Virus record (IMG/VR): IMGVR_UViG_3300013126_000083
Span: 1-39,842 of that record
Direction: 5' to 3' (one strand)
Source: a virus
Length of the DNA stretch: 39,842 bases
Shown: positions 1,230 to 39,570 of the stretch, one piece after another
Layout: the number at the start of each line of letters is the position of its first letter
Numbering within the stretch: the first letter of the stretch is position 1
Position numbers and translations under genes: made by a program
Notes under the pieces: model-generated
Databases searched by the model: none
Told to the model about the DNA's origin: nothing
What the model saw: only the letters and a program-made list of their open reading frames with translations

Positions 1230-4200
1230 TTATCGCCGCCCCATGATAAACTCGACAGGCGTCACGTTCTCGCCCTTCTCTAGCCTATACCACGCATCGA
1301 CCACCCGGTTCAACTGTCCTGACGGCAAGCCAGTGGCGGTACCGACGGCGCTGCTAAGCGCTTTGAACAGCGGCATGTCCGCCTCGCCCTGCGCCGCTTG
1401 CACGAAAGGCTTCGCCAGCGTCTCGACGACCGAGCCGTAGGCACCCGCCTCGTACCCGGACAAGGCCGAGCCGAAGTCGCGGATCGCGGGCACCGTCGAC
1501 ATCATCGACAACAACGTCTCACGCGCGAGGAACGTCCTCCACTTACGGTCGTCGTCCTCGCCCATGCCCGGCAGAGTTCCCTTGATTAAGTTATAAAGGA
1601 TCGCCTCGACCGTGAAGAGCATGGTCATTTCGACGGCCCCCCTCACCGCAGCTTGCAGGGTCTTCAAGTTCACCCCAGTCATGTCCCTGCGTGTGCGCCC
1701 ATAGACCTCATAGGCGATGTTGCCCTTCGCGAACATGTACGACCCCAGCGCCGTGAAGAGCCGTACGAAGCCGTTCTGCCGCGTATCCCGCGACAGCGTG
1801 CCGCGCTCGAAAGCCGAGCGATCCGAGAACACGCCGGACGCCTGCGCGCGCGCGACCATACGATCCGCGTACGCGCGCGCCTTCGCCTCGTCGCCGAACC
1901 TCCTCATACCTTGGTTGTGCGCAGCATACCATGTCGGCACATCGACCCCGTAGAACTGCACCTTCTGCATCAGCCAGAGACCGACGCGCGCCAGCCCCTG
2001 CTGGAAGCGCTTATAGCGCGACGCTGCGGGGCCGACCACGATGTCGCCTAGAATGTCGTTTATATCCCGGTTGAACGTGCTCTCGCGTTCGCGCATGAAC
2101 GACGAGAACTTGACCACCTCCCGCGGGGCACGGAGCGGGTTGGCGGCGTAGATACCGTACCCGATCGCCATGTCTTTCGCCCCCACCGTGACGATAGACT
2201 GGGAGACGCCCGTTAGCTGGATCGCCACCGTGCCCAAATTGAACGCGAGTTTCGACAGGGTGAAGCCGTTCTTCGCGCGCAGCGCCAGCCGCCCGAACAC
2301 GCCGCCAGCAGCGATCTGCCCGGTGGCGGTGTCCTGAAGCCACATCTCTAGCGCTTGGTGATCCTTCAGCAAGCCCTTGCGCTCGAACGCCCCGCGTACG
2401 CGCGGGTCTTGCAGCACTCGCCAAGAGTTCGCCACAGCCTCGGAGAACGCGAGGTCGTGTATCACCTGCCCGACGTGCTGGTGCAGCACCTCCATGCCGA
2501 GTTGCAGCACGCGACCGCCCGAGCCCCGCGCGCGTTCTTCCAGATGACCGTGACGGGTCTGCGCCTTGCCGAAGCGCCCGGCCATCATCTGCTTCTGCAC
2601 TTCGGCCAGTTCCTCAGCGGCCACCAGTCCCGAGACATCGCCTCGGTACTTGATCGGGTAGTAGCCGCCCGCACGCGGGCCGAACGGCGTCTCGACCTCA
2701 GACGCCAGCACCTTCTTTGGCACGACGCCGGTCAGCCGCCGTTCGCGCGCCTCGATCAGCGGCCAGAAGGTGTTCACGTAGTCCCACACGCTCTGCACGA
2801 AGTCCCAGTCGCGCAGGTCAAGCTGTTGCTTGATAAAGTCCACCTGCGAGGCGTTGAAGCCGCTACCGCTGTCTGTGTCCATCAGGCGCGCGAGGTTGTC
2901 GGCGTTGCCCATATTCAGAGCCGCTGAGATCAAGTCCCATTTCGTAAACGCGCCGCCGAGTTCCTTGTAGTGCTTGCGCGTAGCCATCCGCCGCTGCTCG
3001 GCTTTCGAGTACACGCTATACAGCCCTTCCAGCGCGCGCGCCGCTTTTTCGCGCTCGACCTGCGCCCAGTTCGCGGCTGCGTCGATCGGCGCTTTTATGG
3101 CCTCGTATGCAGCACCGACGTCGAACCCGCCAATCTTGCGCAGCAGGGTATCGGCGTTCAACAGCAGGTTCGCGAACTCGCGCAGACCGCCACGCAATTT
3201 CTCGCCCGGCGTTGCGACGCGGTTAGGCGCATGGTCCTTCAGGTTCGTCTCGATCTCTGCCACAACGCCGTCGACAACCGCGGCCAACTCGCGCTCGCTC
3301 TGCGCATCGCGTAGCTTCTTCTTCATCCGCGCTGTGTGCTCGATGTTGCGCAGACTGTCGAATACGCCTTCCAGTTCCGCCAACAGCAGGGTCTTGTACG
3401 GACGTCGCTTCGCCTCGTCAAGCACGTAGGCAGGGATCGCGAGTTCGTTCTCACGGCCCGCTGCCTTCATCATCTCGACGTACTTCAGCAGACCGGAGCG
3501 CCGTTGCGCCTGCCGCAGCGATACCGCCTTTCGAAAGTCGTACGAGGTGAGAATGTCGTCGATTGCTTCCAGATACTCGCCCGCCAGCGCGCTGCGCGTC
3601 GACTTTGACTTCAGCTTCGCGACGTGACTTTCAACCTTCGCCAGCACCTCGTCCGCCGCCTTACTCTCGACGTAAAGCTGATAGTTCAGCAACTGCTCGC
3701 GCTTAGCCGCGTAAGCCTCGTCCATCTGCCCCCGCGCCACAGCCTGCATCGCGCGCTCGCCCGCCCGCCGTTCCGCTGCGAGATACGCCCCGCTGCGAAC
3801 TGCCTTGTGAACCGGCATCGCGCGGATCGCCGCACGCGCGACCTCGGCGGCTTGGCTTCGCGTCGTCACTTGGCCGATCTTGGCTGCCTTGCCGATCGCA
3901 CGAAGTTCCGCCGCGAGCAACTGCCCGCGCTTCTCACCGTGCAGCGCCGCCACCGCCTTCGCCTCGATAGACCCGTCGACCAGCGGGTCCCCGTGACGCT
4001 TGCGCATTTCAGCGTCTGTACGCGCCTTGATCTCGTCCGCCGCGCGAGGCGACGACACTAGGTCTTGCAGCATCTCGCTGCCTGAGCGGTAGCCGAACCA
4101 CCCCGCCACGTCATCAGCGCTGAGCCCCGTATCTTTCGCCCACAGCGGTCGCGAGCCCCGCGGTAGCGCCGTCAGCATCTCTTCGCCGTACTCGTCGATT

Positions 4201-7200
4201 AGCATCTGCCTGTCGAGCCGTAGATCGCCAGCCAGTTGCTCAGGCGCGTCGCCACCCAGCCATCTGGCGTTGCCCAGCCACTCGCGTACGCGGTTCGCGG
4301 GCTTCGCGTTGACCGACGCCCGGATACCCGCCTCTACCTCGGCTCGCTCCGCCTTGAACTCCGCCGTACGCGCGCGCCGAAGCGGTGCCATGATGGTCCG
4401 CAGCATCTCCTGCCGCGTCTCGTCCTGCGCCTCGACAGACAGTTTCACCAGCTTCTGATAGTCCTCTTCCGCGATCCCGAGTTGCGCTGCGTTCTCGGCG
4501 ACCAGCTTGTCAAAGCCGTTCTCGGTCGATGCTGCGGCGATCTCTTCGTCGGTCGCAAGCATGCGATCGAACACGCCGCGCAGTTCGTCATTGATCGGAA
4601 CACCCAGCCCGCGAGCCCGTCGGTACACGCTCAGCAGCCACGCGCTAAACGCCTCGAAGGCAGCGCGCAACGCGTTCGACGGTGCCTTGCCTTCGAGCAA
4701 GTACGCCTCGTACGCCCGCGCCCACGTCTCCTGCAAGCCGACGTTGACCTTGCGATCCGTTTCCAGATCGCCAGTCGTGCCGTCGCGCAGGTACGAAGCG
4801 ACCAGCGCTTCGGAAACGCCGCCGTCCTTGGCAATCAGGTCGATATTCTGACCCCACCACGCAAGGACCGTCTCCCAGTCCGCCCGCATTCCTTCAGGCG
4901 CGTCGCCCTTGGCGATGATGTCTTGCAGCACGTGCAGATAGTAGTGCCCACTCTCGTGCAGAAACGTCGAGAGATCAGCCTTCTGATACAGCGTCACCAG
5001 CGGAGCCCGCCCCGGTTCGGTCGGCAGCAGGATCGACCCACGCGCGCCATCCGGGCGCTTCTGGAACAACGGCTGCGCCTCGCTCGCGGTGGCGCGCATC
5101 TCGGGCGTGATCTCGACCACCCACACCGGATCACTCTCCGGGCGCAGTTCCGCGGGCATAATCTGGAAGAACTGCTTAGGCGTTATGACCGACCTGACGA
5201 GCAAGCTAGACAGCAGCGTTTCCGCGCTCTTCTCAGGATTATGGAGGTCCGCTTGCGTCGACCGCGCGACAGCGAGGCGACCCTTTGTCAGGCCGCGCAT
5301 GTACTCTAGCCGCTCCACCTCGTTCGGCGGGGCACCGGTCGCGCGCGCGCTGGCGAGGCTCTCTTCGAGACCCGCCAAAGTGGCCTCTAAGTTCTGTATC
5401 GAGTCCTGCACCTGCACGGCGCGGCGCATACGCTCGTCGAACATTTCCTTTTCCAAGCTCTCCCATTGCTCCGCTGTCAGCAGCGGGGCACCGGTCGTTA
5501 GATACGGCGTTTCCTTCAGCAAACGGATCGTGTTCTGGAACCCGTATTGCGACGCCGCCAGCATGGCGGTGTTCAAGTCCGAGAGCGGCCCAACCTCAGG
5601 CAGTGCACGATCGAGCCGCACTTGTGAGCCGAAGCGCCGTGCGAACTTGTCGACGAAACGCTTGATCTGCTGGTCGTAGGCAATCTTGTAGCCATCGCCG
5701 CCGACCACGATGTTCTGCCCTGAGATCAAGCCCTCGGGCTCGGCGAGCACGCGCTGCGCCATCGTCCCGCCGAGCAGTTCCGACAGCGACTTACCGACCA
5801 CTTCACTCTCAGGGATGCGACCACCTTCGCGCGACTTCTCAAGGATCACGTTGCTCTCATCAACGAGGAACCAGTCAGTGCCGTTGATCCCCGTCAGTTT
5901 GATCTCGCGAGCAATGCCCGCACTACCGTCCTCGCGGGTGTACTCGACCCGCCCGAAGGGGTACCACGTGATCTCGTGCAGCACGTTCTGCACCGCGCCG
6001 GACCAGCGCCGCGCCTGCATATACGCGGGCGTCCACGCCAGATAATCTGCGCCCTCTTCCGCGGCGGTCTTCAGCAGCTTCTTCATCATCAGCGCGTAGT
6101 ACGCTTCGCCCTCGAAAGGTGTGATCGGCTGCCTCGGCATCGATACCGTCATCTCGTCGCTGATACTATCCTGTTCTCTCGAAATCTCGTCGCGCCGGTC
6201 TTGGTTGCGCAAAAACTCGGCAATCGGCTCATACCCACTTTCGCCGGGCCGCGGCAACTCGTCCGCCAGCCGCCCCAGTAGCGCGGAATACAGCGAGTCA
6301 GGTCCTATCGTGGCGCGAACGGGAAGACCTTCTCGCTTATCGATCACGTCGCGAAGCACCTCGGGTGCCGAGTGAGACGACAACGCGTTCATCGTGCGGC
6401 CAGACGATGAACGCGGCATTTCCAGATTATGCCCTTCAAGCATCGCAGAGGCGATCACGTTGTAGCGCGCGTGCAGCGCTGCTCTCTTGCGAGACAACTC
6501 CAATCTTCTCGCGCTCAGAACTTGCATCTTCGCCACATCCGCCGCGGTCGGCGCTGGCCCATTATCGCGCCAGTACGACCCAAGATCGGACTGGACTTCT
6601 TCGACGAACAACACGTTCTTCCCGTCGGCACTTTTGCGATAGTCAAACCGCGCGTGCACGACGATATTCTCGACGTCATAGTGCGCACTTTTAACGAACG
6701 GCGACAAATCTAAAGCGGCGTTCGGCCCCGCGCGGTTCAGGTTCGGCACCGTCAGCAGCACCTCGCGGTAGTCGTACCCTCCCTTCTCTGTGTGCTTATC
6801 CCAAACAGTTTTACCGCGTGCTTCGGGGCCGTCGTACGCGCGCGTATAGTGGTCGCGGATCGCTTCTATAACGTCGTTCTGCGAGCGATAGTTATCGCCT
6901 TCCCAGTAGTAACCGTCATTCTCGCGTGTAATGACCGTGCTTTCCTCGGACCCGTCCGGTTGCGTGATCGTAACAGGGTACTCGTAGATAGGGTCTTCAT
7001 AGTACGCCTGCACAGCCATATCGCGCGCGCGGTTGAGTAGCGCCTCTTTCTCGTCATCCGAAACATCGTCCGGCCCGAAATCGCCGCCGGGGTCGCTCTC
7101 GTTCATCTCATTGACGCGCTCGTCGATGAGGTCTGGCAGGTAGTTCTCTCGCGCCGTCTGCTCGATCCAGTCGTCATCGTACGCTCGCTCCTCGCCGGGG

Positions 7201-10200
7201 TCGACCTCGACCGTGAACTCCCCGAACACCGCATCTTCGCCCCCGAGCGTGACCGGCGTGATCGTCACCTCATTGCGCCGCAAGAAGTCCACCACCGTCT
7301 CGCGGGCGACCTGCCCCTCTTGCGTGTCCAGCCAAGCGAGCACACCGGACCAGTCGATCTCCGCCTTCTTGATCCCCGGCAGTCGCTGGATGATCGACTT
7401 CCAGTCCTTCGCGGACGCCTTCGCTTGCTTGGCGTTCGCGACATCGCGGGTCAGCGCGCTGAAAAAGTCCGGCGTTGCCCCCGACTGGAACAACTCCACC
7501 GTACGGTCATCCCGCACCGACACAGGCTCGACCGGCTCGAACAGCGCCGCCGCCGCGCCCTGCGGCGCGTCCATGACTATGTAACCCTTAAACCCGCGCT
7601 CAACGAGCCTCTCTTCGAGCCAGCCTATCCGCTGACGCGCAGGCACGTCGTCCGGTATGGCGTCGACCAGCCCCTCGGGATCGCGCGTCAGGTCATAGAG
7701 CGCCTTCGCGGGCACGCGAACCTCATGCCGGTACGGTCCAAGGCTCTCCTTGCGGTAGCCGCCGGGTTTGCCGACGCTAACGCCGAAGAACGCCTTCTTC
7801 GGCCCCCGCACATTGCGCTCGGCACCCCTAAGGGGCCCCGTCCCCGCAAACGCCGGGTCCACCGTGCCACGCGCTGCGTCGGACCAATGTGTCAGTGTTA
7901 CTGTCCCATCTTCGTTAACCGGCACCTTCGGCTTCGCGCTGTCGTCGCGCGCTTCCCAAACCCGGCGTGGCGTTTTCGACGTCGCATAGTCGCTCTTCAG
8001 GCTCGGCAGCTTTTCCGCAAAGCCGCTCACGGCGGCGTAGCTGTCCGACGCCGCGAAGCCCTTGAAGTTCCCGCTATCCCAAATCTGGAACACGTAGCGG
8101 AAGTTATCGAGTAGCACGCGTTCCATCTCGGCGACCGAGACCTGCAACGCGGTCATGCCCTCGACGGCGTCGCCACCGGTTTGAAGCACCTCACGCGCTT
8201 TAGCCGCGAGGGTCTCCTGATCGTAGTACTGCGCTTTGTACCGATCCTTTTTAGCCTCGTTCGCGTTGTACTCTTCGGCGGGCCCGCCCAGCTTCTCGAA
8301 GGTCAGGAACAGCCCGCCCGGCACCAGCAACTCTTTCGCGCGTCGCACGTGGGCACCGCGGGTGTTCGAGATAAACTGGAACACCATCGCTTCGTGCACG
8401 ATGTCGAACTTCTTGCCCTTCGGGTCAAAGAACGGGATCGCCGTCCCGTCGTCCTCGGTCCACGCCACCGTACCCGCATCCTCGGCAGACCCGTAGGCCG
8501 ACAGGTCAAACACGACCCCCTCCACCTGCGGCTTGCTCTCGAACGTCGTCTGCATCGCTACGTTAGGGTCGAGCGCTACCGCAGTCGCACCGGGGTTACG
8601 CTGCACCACGGCTTTCGCCATCGCCCCCTCGGACGCACCGATGTCAAGTAGCGCGCCGGTCCCGATCGTCTCCGAGATCACGAAACCAACGGCGTCCTGC
8701 ATCTCGCGATAGCCCGGTATCGACGTGCGGATATGGTCTTCAAAATTGCCAGAGAAAGGCTCGCGCTCTTTGGCAAAATCCTTGACCTCTTGCGGCAGGT
8801 CGATCACCGGAACATATGCGTCGAGCCGCTGCGGCTGCTGCCGCGCGCCCGACGTAACGTCCGAGAAGAACTTGGTGAAGTGCCGCCCGTCACCAGCCAT
8901 GTCCCCCGAGAGCACCTCGTCGCGGTTCTGGTACAGGGTCTGCGCGGCAAAGCCTGCCGACCACGTAGTCCCATCGCCCATCGTCGAATAGAAGTCACGC
9001 GCCTTAGCGGCGTCGCCTGTGACGAGATCGTTCAAATCCAGCGGGATCGTCGGCGAACCATCCATGAACACAAGACCCTCGCGGGTCAGCACGCTCTCTT
9101 GCCCGTATTTGCGGCCCAACTCGACCACGGTGTCTCGATCCGCGAAGATCATGTACGACACGCCGTCGCTCTGGCCCTTGTAGACACCTTCCATCTTGTG
9201 GAACGCGATCCCACGCGCCTGCAACTCTGCTTCCAGCGCCGCGTTTTGCGCCGCGTCTGTCTCAGCGCCACGCGTCGCCGTCACCACGCCCCAACCGGGA
9301 CGCCGCAGGAAGTCAGCAGTCACGCCTGCGCCAAGATCACCCGGCTGCGCCGGACGCAGCGTTTCACCGCCCAACTGGTTCAACAGCACCGGCCCCGCCG
9401 CGGGGCCGTACATCTGCTCGACGGCGAGTTCGAGATCAGCAGGCTCTGCAACTTCGAGATCAAGACTAGCCGCTTCCGCCGCCGCGCGTATCGCCTTGAT
9501 GAGTTTGCCCTCGCCTTCGCGCTGCTCGACCGGCGCGCGCACGCGATCCAGAACTTCTGCGGTCACGCGCGGTGTTTCGACCGCGACGGAACTCTCTAGC
9601 GCGCCCTGCACCTGCGCCAACGGGTAGCGCTTCAGGAACTCCTTGAGGTCAATCCCCAAGCGCTGCGCCATTGTACGCGCGAACGCGACCGCTTGCAGCG
9701 CTTCCTTCTCAGCAACGTCACTGGTGCGCCCCGCGCGGCGCAACGCCGAGACGAGTTCGACGCGCGCTTCGTCCGCCACGCGTTCAAGGTCAGTCTGCCC
9801 GCTCGTCGCCTTGTCGGCTGCCTCCTGCGCCTGCGTCGACAATTCCGAGAGCCGGGCTTGGTACGCCTTCAACTCCGTCGCGCTCATCCTATCCGGTGCC
9901 GTACGTATATGCCCGCGCAGCCGCTCGTCGAACCGCGTTCCGACGATGTCGGCTGCGTACGACGCTGTTGGTATCTCGACCGCACCGCCGTTGTCGCGCG
10001 CCCGCCGGTACGCTTCAATGTCCACACCGTCAACCGCCGCCAGAAACTGCTCCGCGGTTACGCCACCGGGGTCGCTCTGGAACAACCTATCAAGCGTCTG
10101 CGCATCAACGTACAGGCTTTCCACGGGGCCATCTTTTGTCAGCGTCGCAACGGCGTCGCGGTAGCGCTCCGGCACCTTCGCGCGTATCGTGCTGTCTTTA

Positions 10201-11687
10201 GCTGACGTAGTCAGCGCGTTAAAGAACGCTCGATCCTGCGCAACCCCGCGCTGCTCGCGCAAGTATCGACCGCTCACCCCCACGACTTCGATCGGAGACG
10301 CGACAAACTCCGCGAACACCTCGGCCATAATCTCGACCATGTTCACGTCTTGGCCCGACGCCAACTCGCCCAACAACTCGCCGCTGCCGCCCATCACGCC
10401 CTGCACGAGCGCCTGAAGGATAAGGTTCCCCGCCGGGTTTTTCGCCAACACCCGCCCTGCCACGCCGACGGACGCGGCGTCCAAGAGGCCAACCGTGGCA
10501 CCGTAGGCGAACGAGCGGTCACGCATGTTCCGCCGCACCGCGGGATCGTTGACAAACGCCGCCCGCTGCCCGGGATCGCGCAGGTCATACCCTGCCTCGC
10601 GCACGAACTGGTCATACGCCGAGCGCTCGCTCACCTCGTACGACGTCGCTCCCAGCACGGCTGCGCCAAGAACCGGGTTGCGCGTCAACCCTGTCACCAG
10701 CGCGCTTGCGATCAAGGCCGGCGCGCTATCGAGCGCGACGCCGACTAGCCACTCTGTCATCGCGACCGGTTCCGCCGCGGCGAGCGCCGCGATAGCAGAC
10801 ATCTGCGGCCCAACCCCTTTAATCTTGCTGACGTCGGCCAACGCTGCGTTCATGCGCGTTACGCGCTCCGACGTTCCGTACGTTCTCTCGATCCGTCGAG
10901 CGTTCGCGTCCCGCGCTGCGATGGCCTGCTCGAACGCGTCGGACAGCAGCGCCTCTGACGCCTTCATCGTGTCTTCGCTGACAAAGGTCATACGAGACGA
11001 GACATACCGCGCGAGCGCTGACCACGGCGCCAGCGTTGCCGCGCCGACCGGCGACCACCGCTTCTGCTCATCGGCCAATACCTCGGTAAACGGACGCGCT
11101 CGATCGGCGCGGCGATCTTGCAACTCCGCCAGAGCGTCTTCTGCATTCTTGGCGATGCGGCTGTACCCCAGCGTGTCGGTCACTAGGCGGTCCGCGCCTC
11201 TCTCGAACTGTGAGAGAAGACCCGACAGTCCAGACAGATTTTGTAGGTCTGATTGCGCCAGCGCCGCGTTGATAGGGTCCCTCGCGATCCATCCCGCCAG
11301 CCGCGACGACGACATCAACTGCGCCCGCCGCGCTTGCGCGTCGACCCGCCGGGTCAGTTCCGAGGTCGCGCTAGTCAGCAGGTCCGGCGGAATCACCAAA
11401 CCCCGCTGCCGCGCTTCCGCCGAACGCGCTACGCCCGCGACGGCGTCGCCTACGGGAAAAGCCTGCTCCATCGCAAGCGCCGCCCGCTCCGCCGCCTGCG
11501 CGGCGCGCTGCTCGAAGTAAGACTGGTACGCGCTCGCGGCGGGACTCGCCTGCGGCTGCGTGGACTGCGCCTGAAGCGCCGCGCTGGGGCTCGCCTGCGA
11601 CTGCGTGGACTGCGCTTGAAGCGCCGCGCTGAGACCAGTCTTCTGCGCCTCGAACCACTGAAGATACGCCGCTCGTTCGTCCGCCAT
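1230..11687 (-). CDS. Giant ejected virion / large polyvalent protein, 3485 residues
   Basis: This single gene takes about a quarter of the window. Visible parts in order: a duplicated 15-residue Ala/Gln/Ser unit (20-34, 35-49); a hydrophobic stretch around 312-350; a methyltransferase-like glycine motif LLDIGASEGAM (about 1013-1023) followed by PGGLFLTFE near 1120; an LTHWSDA motif (H1267) of the ADP-ribosyltransferase-like domains found in polyvalent proteins; FVEEVQSD near 1695-1701 and AAEEGADYLAWT near 1865, a pair typical of phage polyvalent proteins; a zinc-peptidase-like HESGH at 2244-2248; a long charged helical region; and hydrophobic segments near 3135-3180 and 3355 in a C-terminal domain common to such proteins. 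Proteins of this class are packaged and injected with the genome to protect or establish it. Its place between the internal virion proteins and the fibre fits ejection. Its ATG directly follows the TAG of the gene upstream. Enzyme activities are inferred from motifs only. Confidence 0.8.
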   Translation of the reverse strand: MADERAAYLQWFEAQKTGLSAALQAQSTQSQASPSAALQAQSTQPQASPAASAYQSYFEQRAAQAAERAALAMEQAFPVGDAVAGVARSAEARQRGLVIPPDLLTSATSELTRRVDAQARRAQLMSSSRLAGWIARDPINAALAQSDLQNLSGLSGLLSQFERGADRLVTDTLGYSRIAKNAEDALAELQDRRADRARPFTEVLADEQKRWSPVGAATLAPWSALARYVSSRMTFVSEDTMKASEALLSDAFEQAIAARDANARRIERTYGTSERVTRMNAALADVSKIKGVGPQMSAIAALAAAEPVAMTEWLVGVALDSAPALIASALVTGLTRNPVLGAAVLGATSYEVSERSAYDQFVREAGYDLRDPGQRAAFVNDPAVRRNMRDRSFAYGATVGLLDAASVGVAGRVLAKNPAGNLILQALVQGVMGGSGELLGELASGQDVNMVEIMAEVFAEFVASPIEVVGVSGRYLREQRGVAQDRAFFNALTTSAKDSTIRAKVPERYRDAVATLTKDGPVESLYVDAQTLDRLFQSDPGGVTAEQFLAAVDGVDIEAYRRARDNGGAVEIPTASYAADIVGTRFDERLRGHIRTAPDRMSATELKAYQARLSELSTQAQEAADKATSGQTDLERVADEARVELVSALRRAGRTSDVAEKEALQAVAFARTMAQRLGIDLKEFLKRYPLAQVQGALESSVAVETPRVTAEVLDRVRAPVEQREGEGKLIKAIRAAAEAASLDLEVAEPADLELAVEQMYGPAAGPVLLNQLGGETLRPAQPGDLGAGVTADFLRRPGWGVVTATRGAETDAAQNAALEAELQARGIAFHKMEGVYKGQSDGVSYMIFADRDTVVELGRKYGQESVLTREGLVFMDGSPTIPLDLNDLVTGDAAKARDFYSTMGDGTTWSAGFAAQTLYQNRDEVLSGDMAGDGRHFTKFFSDVTSGARQQPQRLDAYVPVIDLPQEVKDFAKEREPFSGNFEDHIRTSIPGYREMQDAVGFVISETIGTGALLDIGASEGAMAKAVVQRNPGATAVALDPNVAMQTTFESKPQVEGVVFDLSAYGSAEDAGTVAWTEDDGTAIPFFDPKGKKFDIVHEAMVFQFISNTRGAHVRRAKELLVPGGLFLTFEKLGGPAEEYNANEAKKDRYKAQYYDQETLAAKAREVLQTGGDAVEGMTALQVSVAEMERVLLDNFRYVFQIWDSGNFKGFAASDSYAAVSGFAEKLPSLKSDYATSKTPRRVWEARDDSAKPKVPVNEDGTVTLTHWSDAARGTVDPAFAGTGPLRGAERNVRGPKKAFFGVSVGKPGGYRKESLGPYRHEVRVPAKALYDLTRDPEGLVDAIPDDVPARQRIGWLEERLVERGFKGYIVMDAPQGAAAALFEPVEPVSVRDDRTVELFQSGATPDFFSALTRDVANAKQAKASAKDWKSIIQRLPGIKKAEIDWSGVLAWLDTQEGQVARETVVDFLRRNEVTITPVTLGGEDAVFGEFTVEVDPGEERAYDDDWIEQTARENYLPDLIDERVNEMNESDPGGDFGPDDVSDDEKEALLNRARDMAVQAYYEDPIYEYPVTITQPDGSEESTVITRENDGYYWEGDNYRSQNDVIEAIRDHYTRAYDGPEARGKTVWDKHTEKGGYDYREVLLTVPNLNRAGPNAALDLSPFVKSAHYDVENIVVHARFDYRKSADGKNVLFVEEVQSDLGSYWRDNGPAPTAADVAKMQVLSARRLELSRKRAALHARYNVIASAMLEGHNLEMPRSSSGRTMNALSSHSAPEVLRDVIDKREGLPVRATIGPDSLYSALLGRLADELPRPGESGYEPIAEFLRNQDRRDEISREQDSISDEMTVSMPRQPITPFEGEAYYALMMKKLLKTAAEEGADYLAWTPAYMQARRWSGAVQNVLHEITWYPFGRVEYTREDGSAGIAREIKLTGINGTDWFLVDESNVILEKSREGGRIPESEVVGKSLSELLGGTMAQRVLAEPEGLISGQNIVVGGDGYKIAYDQQIKRFVDKFARRFGSQVRLDRALPEVGPLSDLNTAMLAASQYGFQNTIRLLKETPYLTTGAPLLTAEQWESLEKEMFDERMRRAVQVQDSIQNLEATLAGLEESLASARATGAPPNEVERLEYMRGLTKGRLAVARSTQADLHNPEKSAETLLSSLLVRSVITPKQFFQIMPAELRPESDPVWVVEITPEMRATASEAQPLFQKRPDGARGSILLPTEPGRAPLVTLYQKADLSTFLHESGHYYLHVLQDIIAKGDAPEGMRADWETVLAWWGQNIDLIAKDGGVSEALVASYLRDGTTGDLETDRKVNVGLQETWARAYEAYLLEGKAPSNALRAAFEAFSAWLLSVYRRARGLGVPINDELRGVFDRMLATDEEIAAASTENGFDKLVAENAAQLGIAEEDYQKLVKLSVEAQDETRQEMLRTIMAPLRRARTAEFKAERAEVEAGIRASVNAKPANRVREWLGNARWLGGDAPEQLAGDLRLDRQMLIDEYGEEMLTALPRGSRPLWAKDTGLSADDVAGWFGYRSGSEMLQDLVSSPRAADEIKARTDAEMRKRHGDPLVDGSIEAKAVAALHGEKRGQLLAAELRAIGKAAKIGQVTTRSQAAEVARAAIRAMPVHKAVRSGAYLAAERRAGERAMQAVARGQMDEAYAAKREQLLNYQLYVESKAADEVLAKVESHVAKLKSKSTRSALAGEYLEAIDDILTSYDFRKAVSLRQAQRRSGLLKYVEMMKAAGRENELAIPAYVLDEAKRRPYKTLLLAELEGVFDSLRNIEHTARMKKKLRDAQSERELAAVVDGVVAEIETNLKDHAPNRVATPGEKLRGGLREFANLLLNADTLLRKIGGFDVGAAYEAIKAPIDAAANWAQVEREKAARALEGLYSVYSKAEQRRMATRKHYKELGGAFTKWDLISAALNMGNADNLARLMDTDSGSGFNASQVDFIKQQLDLRDWDFVQSVWDYVNTFWPLIEARERRLTGVVPKKVLASEVETPFGPRAGGYYPIKYRGDVSGLVAAEELAEVQKQMMAGRFGKAQTRHGHLEERARGSGGRVLQLGMEVLHQHVGQVIHDLAFSEAVANSWRVLQDPRVRGAFERKGLLKDHQALEMWLQDTATGQIAAGGVFGRLALRAKNGFTLSKLAFNLGTVAIQLTGVSQSIVTVGAKDMAIGYGIYAANPLRAPREVVKFSSFMRERESTFNRDINDILGDIVVGPAASRYKRFQQGLARVGLWLMQKVQFYGVDVPTWYAAHNQGMRRFGDEAKARAYADRMVARAQASGVFSDRSAFERGTLSRDTRQNGFVRLFTALGSYMFAKGNIAYEVYGRTRRDMTGVNLKTLQAAVRGAVEMTMLFTVEAILYNLIKGTLPGMGEDDDRKWRTFLARETLLSMMSTVPAIRDFGSALSGYEAGAYGSVVETLAKPFVQAAQGEADMPLFKALSSAVGTATGLPSGQLNRVVDAWYRLEKGENVTPVEFIMGRR
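11542..11631. repeat. 45-base tandem duplication at the start of the giant protein gene
   Basis: Two copies of a 45-base unit lie head to tail, with a few substitutions between them. They encode SAALQAQSTQSQASP and SAALQAQSTQPQASP (residues 20-34 and 35-49). The frame is preserved. The unit is a flexible, low-complexity spacer near the N terminus. Confidence 0.88.
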
Positions 11688-36863: not shown

Positions 36864-38114
36864 ATGAACGATATGTCGGTGCTTTCTCGCGATCCGCAGG
36901 ACTTTCTATTTTTCGACACTGAGACGCGCGCGCTTCCCGATCTGGAAGACCCGCGCTGGGGCGATGTCACACAGGCAGGTGCCGCGCGCTACGGAAAAAG
37001 CTGCAAGGTCGTGGTGTTCCGCTACTGCATCGGCAACGGGCCGATGCGTCGCTGGGACTTGGACGACTTTTCCAAGACCCTGAAATGGCGCGAGGCACCG
37101 CCGGATTTGCTAGAGCATCTGGCGCGCGCGCTGAAGGGCGAGACGTGGTTTGTCGCGTGGAATAGCTTCTTCGACCGGCACGTATGTAACGGCGGTATGG
37201 TGCGCCCGTCGGCTGGTCCTGCCCTTCCCGTGCGTGTGGTGCTGGACGCTATGGCGCAGGCGACGGCGTCTAACCTGCCAGCTAAGCTGGAAGGCGCTTC
37301 TCGCGCTATCGGGCGCAGCGGCAAGGTAGAACTTGGCAAGCACCTGATCGCGCTGTTCGCACCCGCTGACGGCGGCACTCCACAGTCGCACCCGGTCGAA
37401 TGGGAGCAGTACAAGGGGTACGCCGACGTCGACGTCGAAGAACTGCGCGCGGTGTTTCTGGCGACGCGTCCGTTGTGGCGCTGGGAATGGGAGCAGTTCT
37501 GGACTAGCGAGACGATCAACGATCGCGGGTTGCCGATCGACGCACACTTCGTCGCGCGCGCTAAAGTCCTCGCCGACGCGTACATGACACAGGTCGACGA
37601 GCGTGTCGTCGAGTACACGCACGGGGTGTGCTGGTCTGTAAACCAGCACGTCGCGTTGGCGAACTGGGTCGCCGACGGCGTCGCGCACTTGCCCGAGGCC
37701 GCGGACATTCTCGTGAAGAAGTATGAGGAAGACGCCGAGGGCGACGGCCTCGTTGCCGCCGCGCTTTCACTCTCGCGCGACCGCGTCGAGAGACTGATCG
37801 CCTATCTGGAACGGCTCGACGAAAAGCAGGGGCTGACCGACGACGAGTTCGACGTGCTGCAACTATTGGAAACTCGTCTGTACGGTGCCTCGGCGACCCC
37901 AAAGAAGTTCGGTAAGATGCTGCCCATGCTCGACGGCAGATACCGCCTGTGCGGGCAGTACACGTTCAACGGAGCTCAACAGACTGGGCGCTTCTCGTCA
38001 CGCGGTGCGCAGGTTCATAACCTCACCCGCGCCTTTGTGGGCATGGAAGATCAGGCACCCGGGCGCGAGGCCGAGGCGATCGAGTTCATCAGCGAGATGG
38101 AGATCGAAGAATGA
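36864..38114 (+). CDS. DNA polymerase family A, N-terminal half (3'-5' exonuclease + thumb)
   Basis: A 416-residue protein from the ATG at 36864 with AGGA nine bases upstream; the longer frame to 36759 would overlap the terminator and preceding gene. The proofreading exonuclease is marked by Exo I FFDTET (D18, E20), Exo II AWNSFFDRHV (D104) and Exo III YADVDVEEL (Y186, D190). Then come a thumb-like helical region and QYTFNGAQQTGRFSSR, the conserved family A segment that normally precedes motif A of the palm. The protein stops shortly after this (EIEE), and the rest of the polymerase is encoded by the next gene. The two are joined by an ATGA overlap. Confidence 0.9.
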   Translation: MNDMSVLSRDPQDFLFFDTETRALPDLEDPRWGDVTQAGAARYGKSCKVVVFRYCIGNGPMRRWDLDDFSKTLKWREAPPDLLEHLARALKGETWFVAWNSFFDRHVCNGGMVRPSAGPALPVRVVLDAMAQATASNLPAKLEGASRAIGRSGKVELGKHLIALFAPADGGTPQSHPVEWEQYKGYADVDVEELRAVFLATRPLWRWEWEQFWTSETINDRGLPIDAHFVARAKVLADAYMTQVDERVVEYTHGVCWSVNQHVALANWVADGVAHLPEAADILVKKYEEDAEGDGLVAAALSLSRDRVERLIAYLERLDEKQGLTDDEFDVLQLLETRLYGASATPKKFGKMLPMLDGRYRLCGQYTFNGAQQTGRFSSRGAQVHNLTRAFVGMEDQAPGREAEAIEFISEMEIEE

Positions 38115-39166
38115 CCGGCGTGTCGACACTACGTCAATTCGAGGATCGGTTCGGCTCTCCGGGCCGCGCGCTGTCGCGCCTGATCCGCCCATCTATCGCC
38201 GCCAAGAATGGCCGTACGATGGTGTGGGGCGACTGGTCGGCGATCGAAGCGCGCGTGCTGCCGTGGCTCGCGGCGACGCGCGGTGCCGAGGGCGTGCTCG
38301 ACATCTTCCGCGCGTCGGACGCTGACAAAAGCGTGCCGGACATCTACATGCACGAGGCGGCGAACGTACTCGGCATGAACGTCGACGAGATGTGGGCGGA
38401 GTACCGCCAGAAGAACCCCCGCGCGAAGAACTGGCGACAGCAGGGAAAGGTGCCGGTACTGTCACTGGGATTTGGCGGTGGCGTTGGCGCCTTGCAGCAC
38501 ATGGCGGTCAACTACGGCATCTCGATCACTGAAGACGAAGCGCGTGTCGTGGTCGATAAGTGGCGCGAGAACAACCGATGGGCGCGCGCGTTTTGGGACG
38601 CGCTTTGGAAGGCGCTCCTCGTCGCGATGGAACACCCCGACGTTCCGCAGGAAGTCGGACGCGTGGTGTACCTGTTCGATCCCGGCTATATGGGCGGCAC
38701 CGTGTTCTGCTTCCTTCCAGATGGGCGTCCCATCACGTACCCCGGCGTCAAGTGGATGAAGCGCGAGCGCGAAGACCGTGAAGGCAACGTGACCGAGCGC
38801 GTCGAATTAACCTACATGCGCGGCTATGAGCGTGTCTCGCTCTGGTACGGGGTGCTCGCCGAGAACGTAACCCAAGCGACTGCCGCCTCGCTGCTTCGCG
38901 ACTGCCTGTGCCGACTAAGCCCGGCGCAGAGCTTGAAAGGCGCGCGCGAGCAGGTGTTCACATCGCCGTTCGCGCAAGTGCACGCCGAAGTGATCGGACA
39001 CACGCACGACGAAATCATCGTCGAGACTGAAGACAACGACGACGACGTTAATGCGGTCAGGGCTATCTTGCACGCCGAGATGGGGCGCAATCCAGACTGG
39101 GCGACCGGACTGCCGCTCGTCGCTGAAGTTTCGGATAACTGGTACTATACTAAAACGGTAGGTTAA
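38111..39166 (+). CDS. DNA polymerase family A, C-terminal half (palm/fingers)
   Basis: A 351-residue protein with the catalytic polymerase motifs: motif A WGDWSAIEARVL (D41, E46), motif B RQQGKVPVLSLGFGGG (R109, K113, F121) and motif C HTHDEIIVET (D300, E301). F121 stands where many family A enzymes have Tyr; this position is known to affect discrimination against dideoxynucleotides. It lacks an exonuclease and thumb, so it must pair with the upstream product to make a complete enzyme. The ATG overlaps the stop of that gene, allowing coupled translation. I see no intein or homing endonuclease at the junction. It replicates the phage genome. Confidence 0.92.
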   Translation: MTGVSTLRQFEDRFGSPGRALSRLIRPSIAAKNGRTMVWGDWSAIEARVLPWLAATRGAEGVLDIFRASDADKSVPDIYMHEAANVLGMNVDEMWAEYRQKNPRAKNWRQQGKVPVLSLGFGGGVGALQHMAVNYGISITEDEARVVVDKWRENNRWARAFWDALWKALLVAMEHPDVPQEVGRVVYLFDPGYMGGTVFCFLPDGRPITYPGVKWMKREREDREGNVTERVELTYMRGYERVSLWYGVLAENVTQATAASLLRDCLCRLSPAQSLKGAREQVFTSPFAQVHAEVIGHTHDEIIVETEDNDDDVNAVRAILHAEMGRNPDWATGLPLVAEVSDNWYYTKTVG

Positions 39167-39570
39167 TGATGTCTGCTACAGAAGACCACGGCACCCCGCG
39201 CGGGCGCGTGCTCAAGGATGCAAGCGCACTCACTCATGGAGACAGGAACGACGCGTACGGCGATCCCGTCGATAACCACGAGCACATCGCCCGCATCTTC
39301 AACGCGATCACCGGGCGTGATCTAAGCGCGCGCGAGATCGTGCTGGTGCACGAAGCGACGAAGCTGGCGCGTCGCGCGAGGAACCCGAGGCATTACGACA
39401 GCTACGTCGACAACGCGGCGTACGTCGGGATCGAGTTCGAGTGCGCACTAGCGGAGTTTGACGCGCAGACCAAGGCCGAGCCTCAGACGCACGCTCGCGA
39501 GGCCGAAACCGAGGATGACGGGTTCGTTACGATTGACCCGGCATCCACGATCGCCAACGGCATCGACTGA
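39166..39570 (+). CDS. DUF6378-like protein
   Basis: A 134-residue protein whose ATG overlaps the polymerase TAA (TAATG; a second ATG follows at 39169). The core GDRNDAYGDPVDNHEHIARI, then FNAITGRDLSAREIVL and SYVDNAAYVGIEFECAL is a widely found phage domain of the DUF6378 kind, helical and perhaps related to MazG-like all-alpha nucleotide hydrolases. The function is unknown. The C-terminal ~30 residues are acidic and poorly conserved in appearance (AETEDDGFVTIDPAST). Its place after polymerase would fit nucleotide metabolism. Confidence 0.82.
   Translation: MMSATEDHGTPRGRVLKDASALTHGDRNDAYGDPVDNHEHIARIFNAITGRDLSAREIVLVHEATKLARRARNPRHYDSYVDNAAYVGIEFECALAEFDAQTKAEPQTHAREAETEDDGFVTIDPASTIANGID

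Follow-up and report, generated by a model that had tools for sequence, protein, structure and literature searches.

Two adjacent genes encode the halves of a family A DNA polymerase in an uncultivated podovirus-like phage, and relatives carry the halves unlinked

RESULTS

We analyzed a 39.8-kb record of an uncultivated virus (the window; IMG/VR IMGVR_UViG_3300013126_000083) with podovirus-like genes for a head-tail adaptor, a tail tubular protein, a terminase, and a major head protein. Its minus strand also encodes a 3485-aa protein (1230-11687), probably a giant virion protein, residues 971-1163 of which match a PHROG named tRNA methyltransferase (E value, 1e-13). The replication block reads, in order, DUF2800/PD-(D/E)XK nuclease, small protein, EXO, POL, and DUF6378. 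EXO (36864..38114, plus strand; ATG at 36864, stop codon at 38112-38114) encodes 416 aa comprising a 3'-5' exonuclease, a thumb, and the first palm segment (TGRFSSR). POL (38111..39166, plus strand; ATG at 38111, stop codon at 39164-39166) encodes 351 aa comprising palm and fingers with motifs A, B, and C, and the second helix of a palm insert lies at its N terminus. POL is in the -1 frame relative to EXO, and its start codon overlaps the EXO stop codon in the sequence ATGA (38111..38114, plus strand), as the first-pass annotation of this DNA had reported. The EXO reading frame contains a Shine-Dalgarno-like GGAG (38099..38102, plus strand) 8 nt ahead of the POL start codon, and its sequence and spacing are the same in the close relative L003; the ATGA and the GGAG together would fit coupled translation of POL. 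The POL frame is open from 38021, and no in-frame X XXY YYZ slippery heptamer was found at 38021-38117. The DUF6378 gene (39164-39570, plus strand) begins within the POL stop codon (TAATG), which suggests that coupling goes on downstream.

The match to the phage DNA polymerase profile phrog_17 passes from EXO, which covers 669-987, to POL, which resumes at 988-1235; the pair thus amounts to one complete polymerase. POL matched Pfam DNA_pol_A barely over the cut-off, and no second DNA_pol_A match was present in the window or in six of the split contigs described below. EXO carries the exonuclease motifs ExoI (D18/E20), ExoII (N100/D104), and ExoIII (Y186/D190), which are conserved in relatives and are also present in other split contigs, and near its end the TGR of palm motif 1 (T374-G375-R376; 37983..37991, plus strand), likewise conserved in relatives. 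POL carries motif A (catalytic D41; 38231..38233, plus strand), motif B (R109/K113, in the O helix), and motif C (H299-D300-E301; 39005..39013, plus strand), and all of these POL residues are invariant across 43 sequences. The first-pass annotation was therefore right that the key residues of exonuclease, TGR, and motifs A, B, and C are all there: they are intact and conserved in relatives. Family A polymerases (Klenow, Taq, and T7) are textbook single-chain enzymes. The pair has the family's motifs A to C with their catalytic residues, its exonuclease motifs I to III, and a predicted Klenow/T7 palm-fingers fold, but in place of the single chain that is usual for family A, though not strictly defining, there are two open reading frames (ORFs) in the window, in L003, in L006, and in the dispersed relatives. 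Among PHROG families, POL aligns over almost the entire length of phrog_10285 (321 aa), and phrog_403 carries the name "DNA polymerase exonuclease subunit"; compared by family entry rather than by members, these entries give no account of the split.

A search of relatives recovered the same split, at the same alignment position, in two close relatives (about 70% identical) and in further contigs. L003 (72%/68% identical to EXO/POL) shares the ATGA overlap. In L006/L162 (71%/67% identical), the halves are separated by a 78-codon ORF (L162, 6894-7127, plus strand) that meets POL by an ATGA overlap; its product is hydrophobic and membrane-protein-like. The nearest fused relative, L004, has one ORF of 757 aa that is 63%/55% identical to EXO/POL. 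L004 and the fused polymerases of Nostoc phage Nsp-JY18 and Microcystis phage Mel-JY33 (about 44% identical) are homologous over both halves, but each is a single chain (748-757 aa) where the window has two. In the trio formed by the window, L003, and L006, both halves are under purifying selection (dN, 0.21-0.27, versus dS, 1.1-1.4, with dS near saturation). A single scan of prokaryote genomes returned just two weak relatives (28-30%). At the level of sequence comparison, we regard it as confirmed that the split family A polymerase genes of this phage are genuine and conserved.

The cut had been placed between TGRFSSR and motif A, and the ORF ends, the motif positions, and the recurrence in relatives bear this out. 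The accompanying division into exonuclease/thumb and palm/fingers proteins holds in the main, except that EXO also has the first palm segment with the TGR motif; the cut consequently passes through the palm and not between thumb and palm. In a 68-sequence alignment, the site of the break is a loop between two short helices, after HNLTR and before LSRLIRP, and this loop varies in length among fused relatives. In the predicted model of L004 (pLDDT, 94.1), the cut maps to a loop (413-420) flanked by two helices (403-412 and 421-431), and this helix-loop-helix arrangement indicates that a permissive loop is where the palm divides, the TGR strand staying on EXO. Modeled alone with AlphaFold2 (pLDDT, 91.6; pTM, 0.86), POL matches PolI chains with a Z score of about 20 (a PolI/Klenow-like fold) and is predicted to be able to fold by itself. 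The fused relative's model matches Klenow, Bst, apicoplast, and T7 polymerases. A sequence search of EXO against solved structures gave no match.

In a wider survey we gathered 147 loci, 123 of them fused; these figures are not phage counts, since many loci come from a single contig fetched in overlapping pieces. The split contigs are all from uncultivated viruses, and missing halves were located by whole-record searches. The halves lie on one strand at distances of 0.3 kb (L155), 0.8 kb (L152, whose EXO is cut off by the contig end), 2.9 kb (L150), and 6.2 kb (L158); on opposite strands, 3.0 kb (L153) and 8.1 kb (L161) apart; and at opposite ends of one contig, again on opposite strands, in L156/L157. 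L155, L152, L150, L158, L153, and L161 are all cut in the same loop as the window; L148, L149, and L151 are incomplete, being without EXO. The genes between the halves are ordinary for phages (GapR, calcineurin-like phosphoesterase, and C-5 DNA methylase), and no homing endonuclease was recognized among the intervening genes tested. Genes for GapR-like DNA-binding proteins lie between EXO and POL in L155 (7420-7710, minus strand) and L158 (9942-10487, minus strand), and that of L155 has an ATGA overlap with both neighbors. The stand-alone POL genes of L155 (5471-7420, minus strand) and L157 (3389-5221, minus strand) contain a 286-aa Hint-type intein (CLGADTLVATDG...VHN|CENVTQ) that interrupts the conserved LA|EN motif; the +1 position is Cys. 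L155 has, in addition, a second, partial copy of the POL C-terminal end (4556-5077, minus strand; residues 294-348), located downstream of the POL that carries the intein.

The distant relative L160 (3300027985_000501; 4206-6464, minus strand) is split elsewhere, directly before motif A (LLRTTITAGD* / MSKRLVWCDWS). L154 (3300036857_000259; 3985-6259, plus strand) was set aside as a candidate split: its frame is interrupted at a GAC (poly-Asp) run in the thumb, probably through a sequencing or assembly slip. All eight annotated phage polymerases that we checked individually are single genes. A 383-aa "DNA polymerase" of Ralstonia phage Simangalove (BFVD A0A7G5BBT3) matches the fused model (TM score, 0.82 by target length) and may be a half that stands alone in a cultured phage.

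In a careful tree, from which L160 was left out for its other split site and long branch, the window groups with L003 and L162 in one clade (98/93), whose sister is the fused L004 (100/99). Grouping all splits as one clade was rejected (p-AU, 6e-5; 5e-4 without L159), so either fission of the gene was repeated or a split was later undone by refusion; at least three split/fused changes are needed. Grouping the dispersed splits as one clade was not rejected (p, 0.17), and the deep branches that decide between fission and refusion are weak (80/64 and 83/77). EXO and POL trees, built separately, agree on the supported pairs (the window with L003, L153 with L156, L155 with L158, and L159 with the fused L056/L026). 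Judged from the gene sequences, this agreement is consistent with an obligate pair that is inherited together.

DISCUSSION

It is very probable, in our judgment, that this phage encodes a family A DNA polymerase as two polypeptides from adjacent genes, with non-covalent, Klenow-like association of the products, coupled translation, and fission in a palm loop. Two genes with a conserved cut, purifying selection on both, intact active sites, and a POL that is predicted to fold are what the locus offers, and from these we infer association into one enzyme, its activity, and the coupling. EXO would contribute the proofreading exonuclease, the thumb, and the TGR palm strand, and POL the catalytic palm and fingers; most likely, the two associate non-covalently to form one Klenow-like proofreading replicative polymerase. 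POL would be made from its own start by termination-reinitiation at the ATGA, aided by the GGAG in the EXO end, and such coupled translation would yield about equal amounts of the two proteins. The break probably arose by gene fission in the loop of the two-helix palm insert, a site presumably tolerant of a chain break. This loop either underwent fission repeatedly or was restored by refusion after a split, and in other lineages the halves have drifted apart. The wider proposition, that a phage lineage has as its replicase an obligate family A heterodimer with a palm shared by two chains, with repeated fission at one loop and with subunit genes sometimes unlinked and even on opposite strands, seems to us reasonably likely.

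The halves might instead act independently, with POL polymerizing without an exonuclease and EXO serving as a free nuclease, and the prediction that POL can fold alone would suit such a division of labor. Klenow-type enzymes need the thumb and the TGR strand for primer-template binding, however, and here both occur only in EXO and are kept there under selection; independent action is, in our view, unlikely. We consider it very doubtful that programmed -1 frameshifting fuses the halves into one chain. With POL in the -1 frame and open well upstream of its start, a shift is formally possible, but the overlap region lacks an in-frame slippery heptamer, POL is equipped with a start codon and a GGAG site of its own, a gene lies between the halves in L006, and the halves are unlinked in distant relatives.

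It is scarcely credible that a frameshift introduced by sequencing or assembly broke an ordinary single gene, even though L004 (55-63% identical) has an intact fused gene and L154 does resemble an error of this sort. The same break occurs in two independent contigs, with a whole gene filling the gap in one of them; the same loop is cut where the halves are unlinked and on opposite strands; and the POL start codon has a well-placed GGAG that is conserved in L003. For L153 and L161, with their opposite-strand halves, and for L006, with its intervening gene, two separate chains are the only plausible product, which rules out sequencing error. An error at 38105-38115, which the first-pass annotation had named, together with fused relatives, as what could overturn the split, does not hold up, and the fused L004 is a different, more distant phage. 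Reconstitution of one chain by split-intein trans-splicing or by intron removal is extremely improbable: inteins do occur in this family, within POL, and introns are known in phage polymerase genes, but the EXO end and the POL beginning lie a few residues from conserved helices and carry no intein motifs, an Rfam search gave no intron for the window or for six split loci, and the intervening genes are ordinary, in keeping with the initial view that the junction has neither element.

A two-chain polymerase of this kind would bear on several fields. A natural, conserved break in the palm shows where a family A enzyme can be divided, and the phages would supply ready-made two-part polymerases for mechanism work and for split-polymerase tools. 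Annotation pipelines may label the halves as fragments or as intron-broken genes, and surveys that use phage PolA as a marker gene may miss split genes or count them twice.

Polymerases divided between two genes have precedents in phages. The T4-like gp43A/43B polymerase is reportedly encoded by two genes; it differs from the present one in belonging to family B. MIJ3 likewise has a PolB split in two genes, with a split intein (PMC6892783) of a kind that is absent here. Within family A, LUZ24-like phages have DNA polymerase parts I and II with small ORFs between them, one for a membrane protein, and the arrangement was interpreted as two exons (PMC3890496). The small membrane protein gene recalls the 78-codon ORF of L162, but the LUZ24-like cut follows the exonuclease (171 aa/546 aa) and keeps palm and thumb together, whereas the cut in the window does not fall between exonuclease and thumb, and thumb and TGR strand stay with EXO. 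Closer still are the Methylophilales (OM43) phages MEP401/402 (PMC10580990). As excerpted, that account describes two genes for a family A polymerase, separated by a small unknown ORF; the cut is between TGRLSS and motif A, with exonuclease and thumb first and palm/fingers second, and the authors considered an intron. MEP401/402 belong to a separate T7-like lineage (Zobellviridae), and, according to the same excerpts, the MEP401 cut lies immediately before motif A, without the two-helix insert, near the cut site of L160; the cut in the window lies in the same interval but farther from motif A. The excerpts mention no unlinked or opposite-strand halves. Given the MEP401 and LUZ24-like precedents, a split phage PolA is already a known kind. 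The literature searched, which included few subscription journals, yielded no example of a cut in the palm insert, of its repeated occurrence, or of unlinked, opposite-strand halves, and the unlinked halves are a notable addition to the split phage PolA enzymes known so far.
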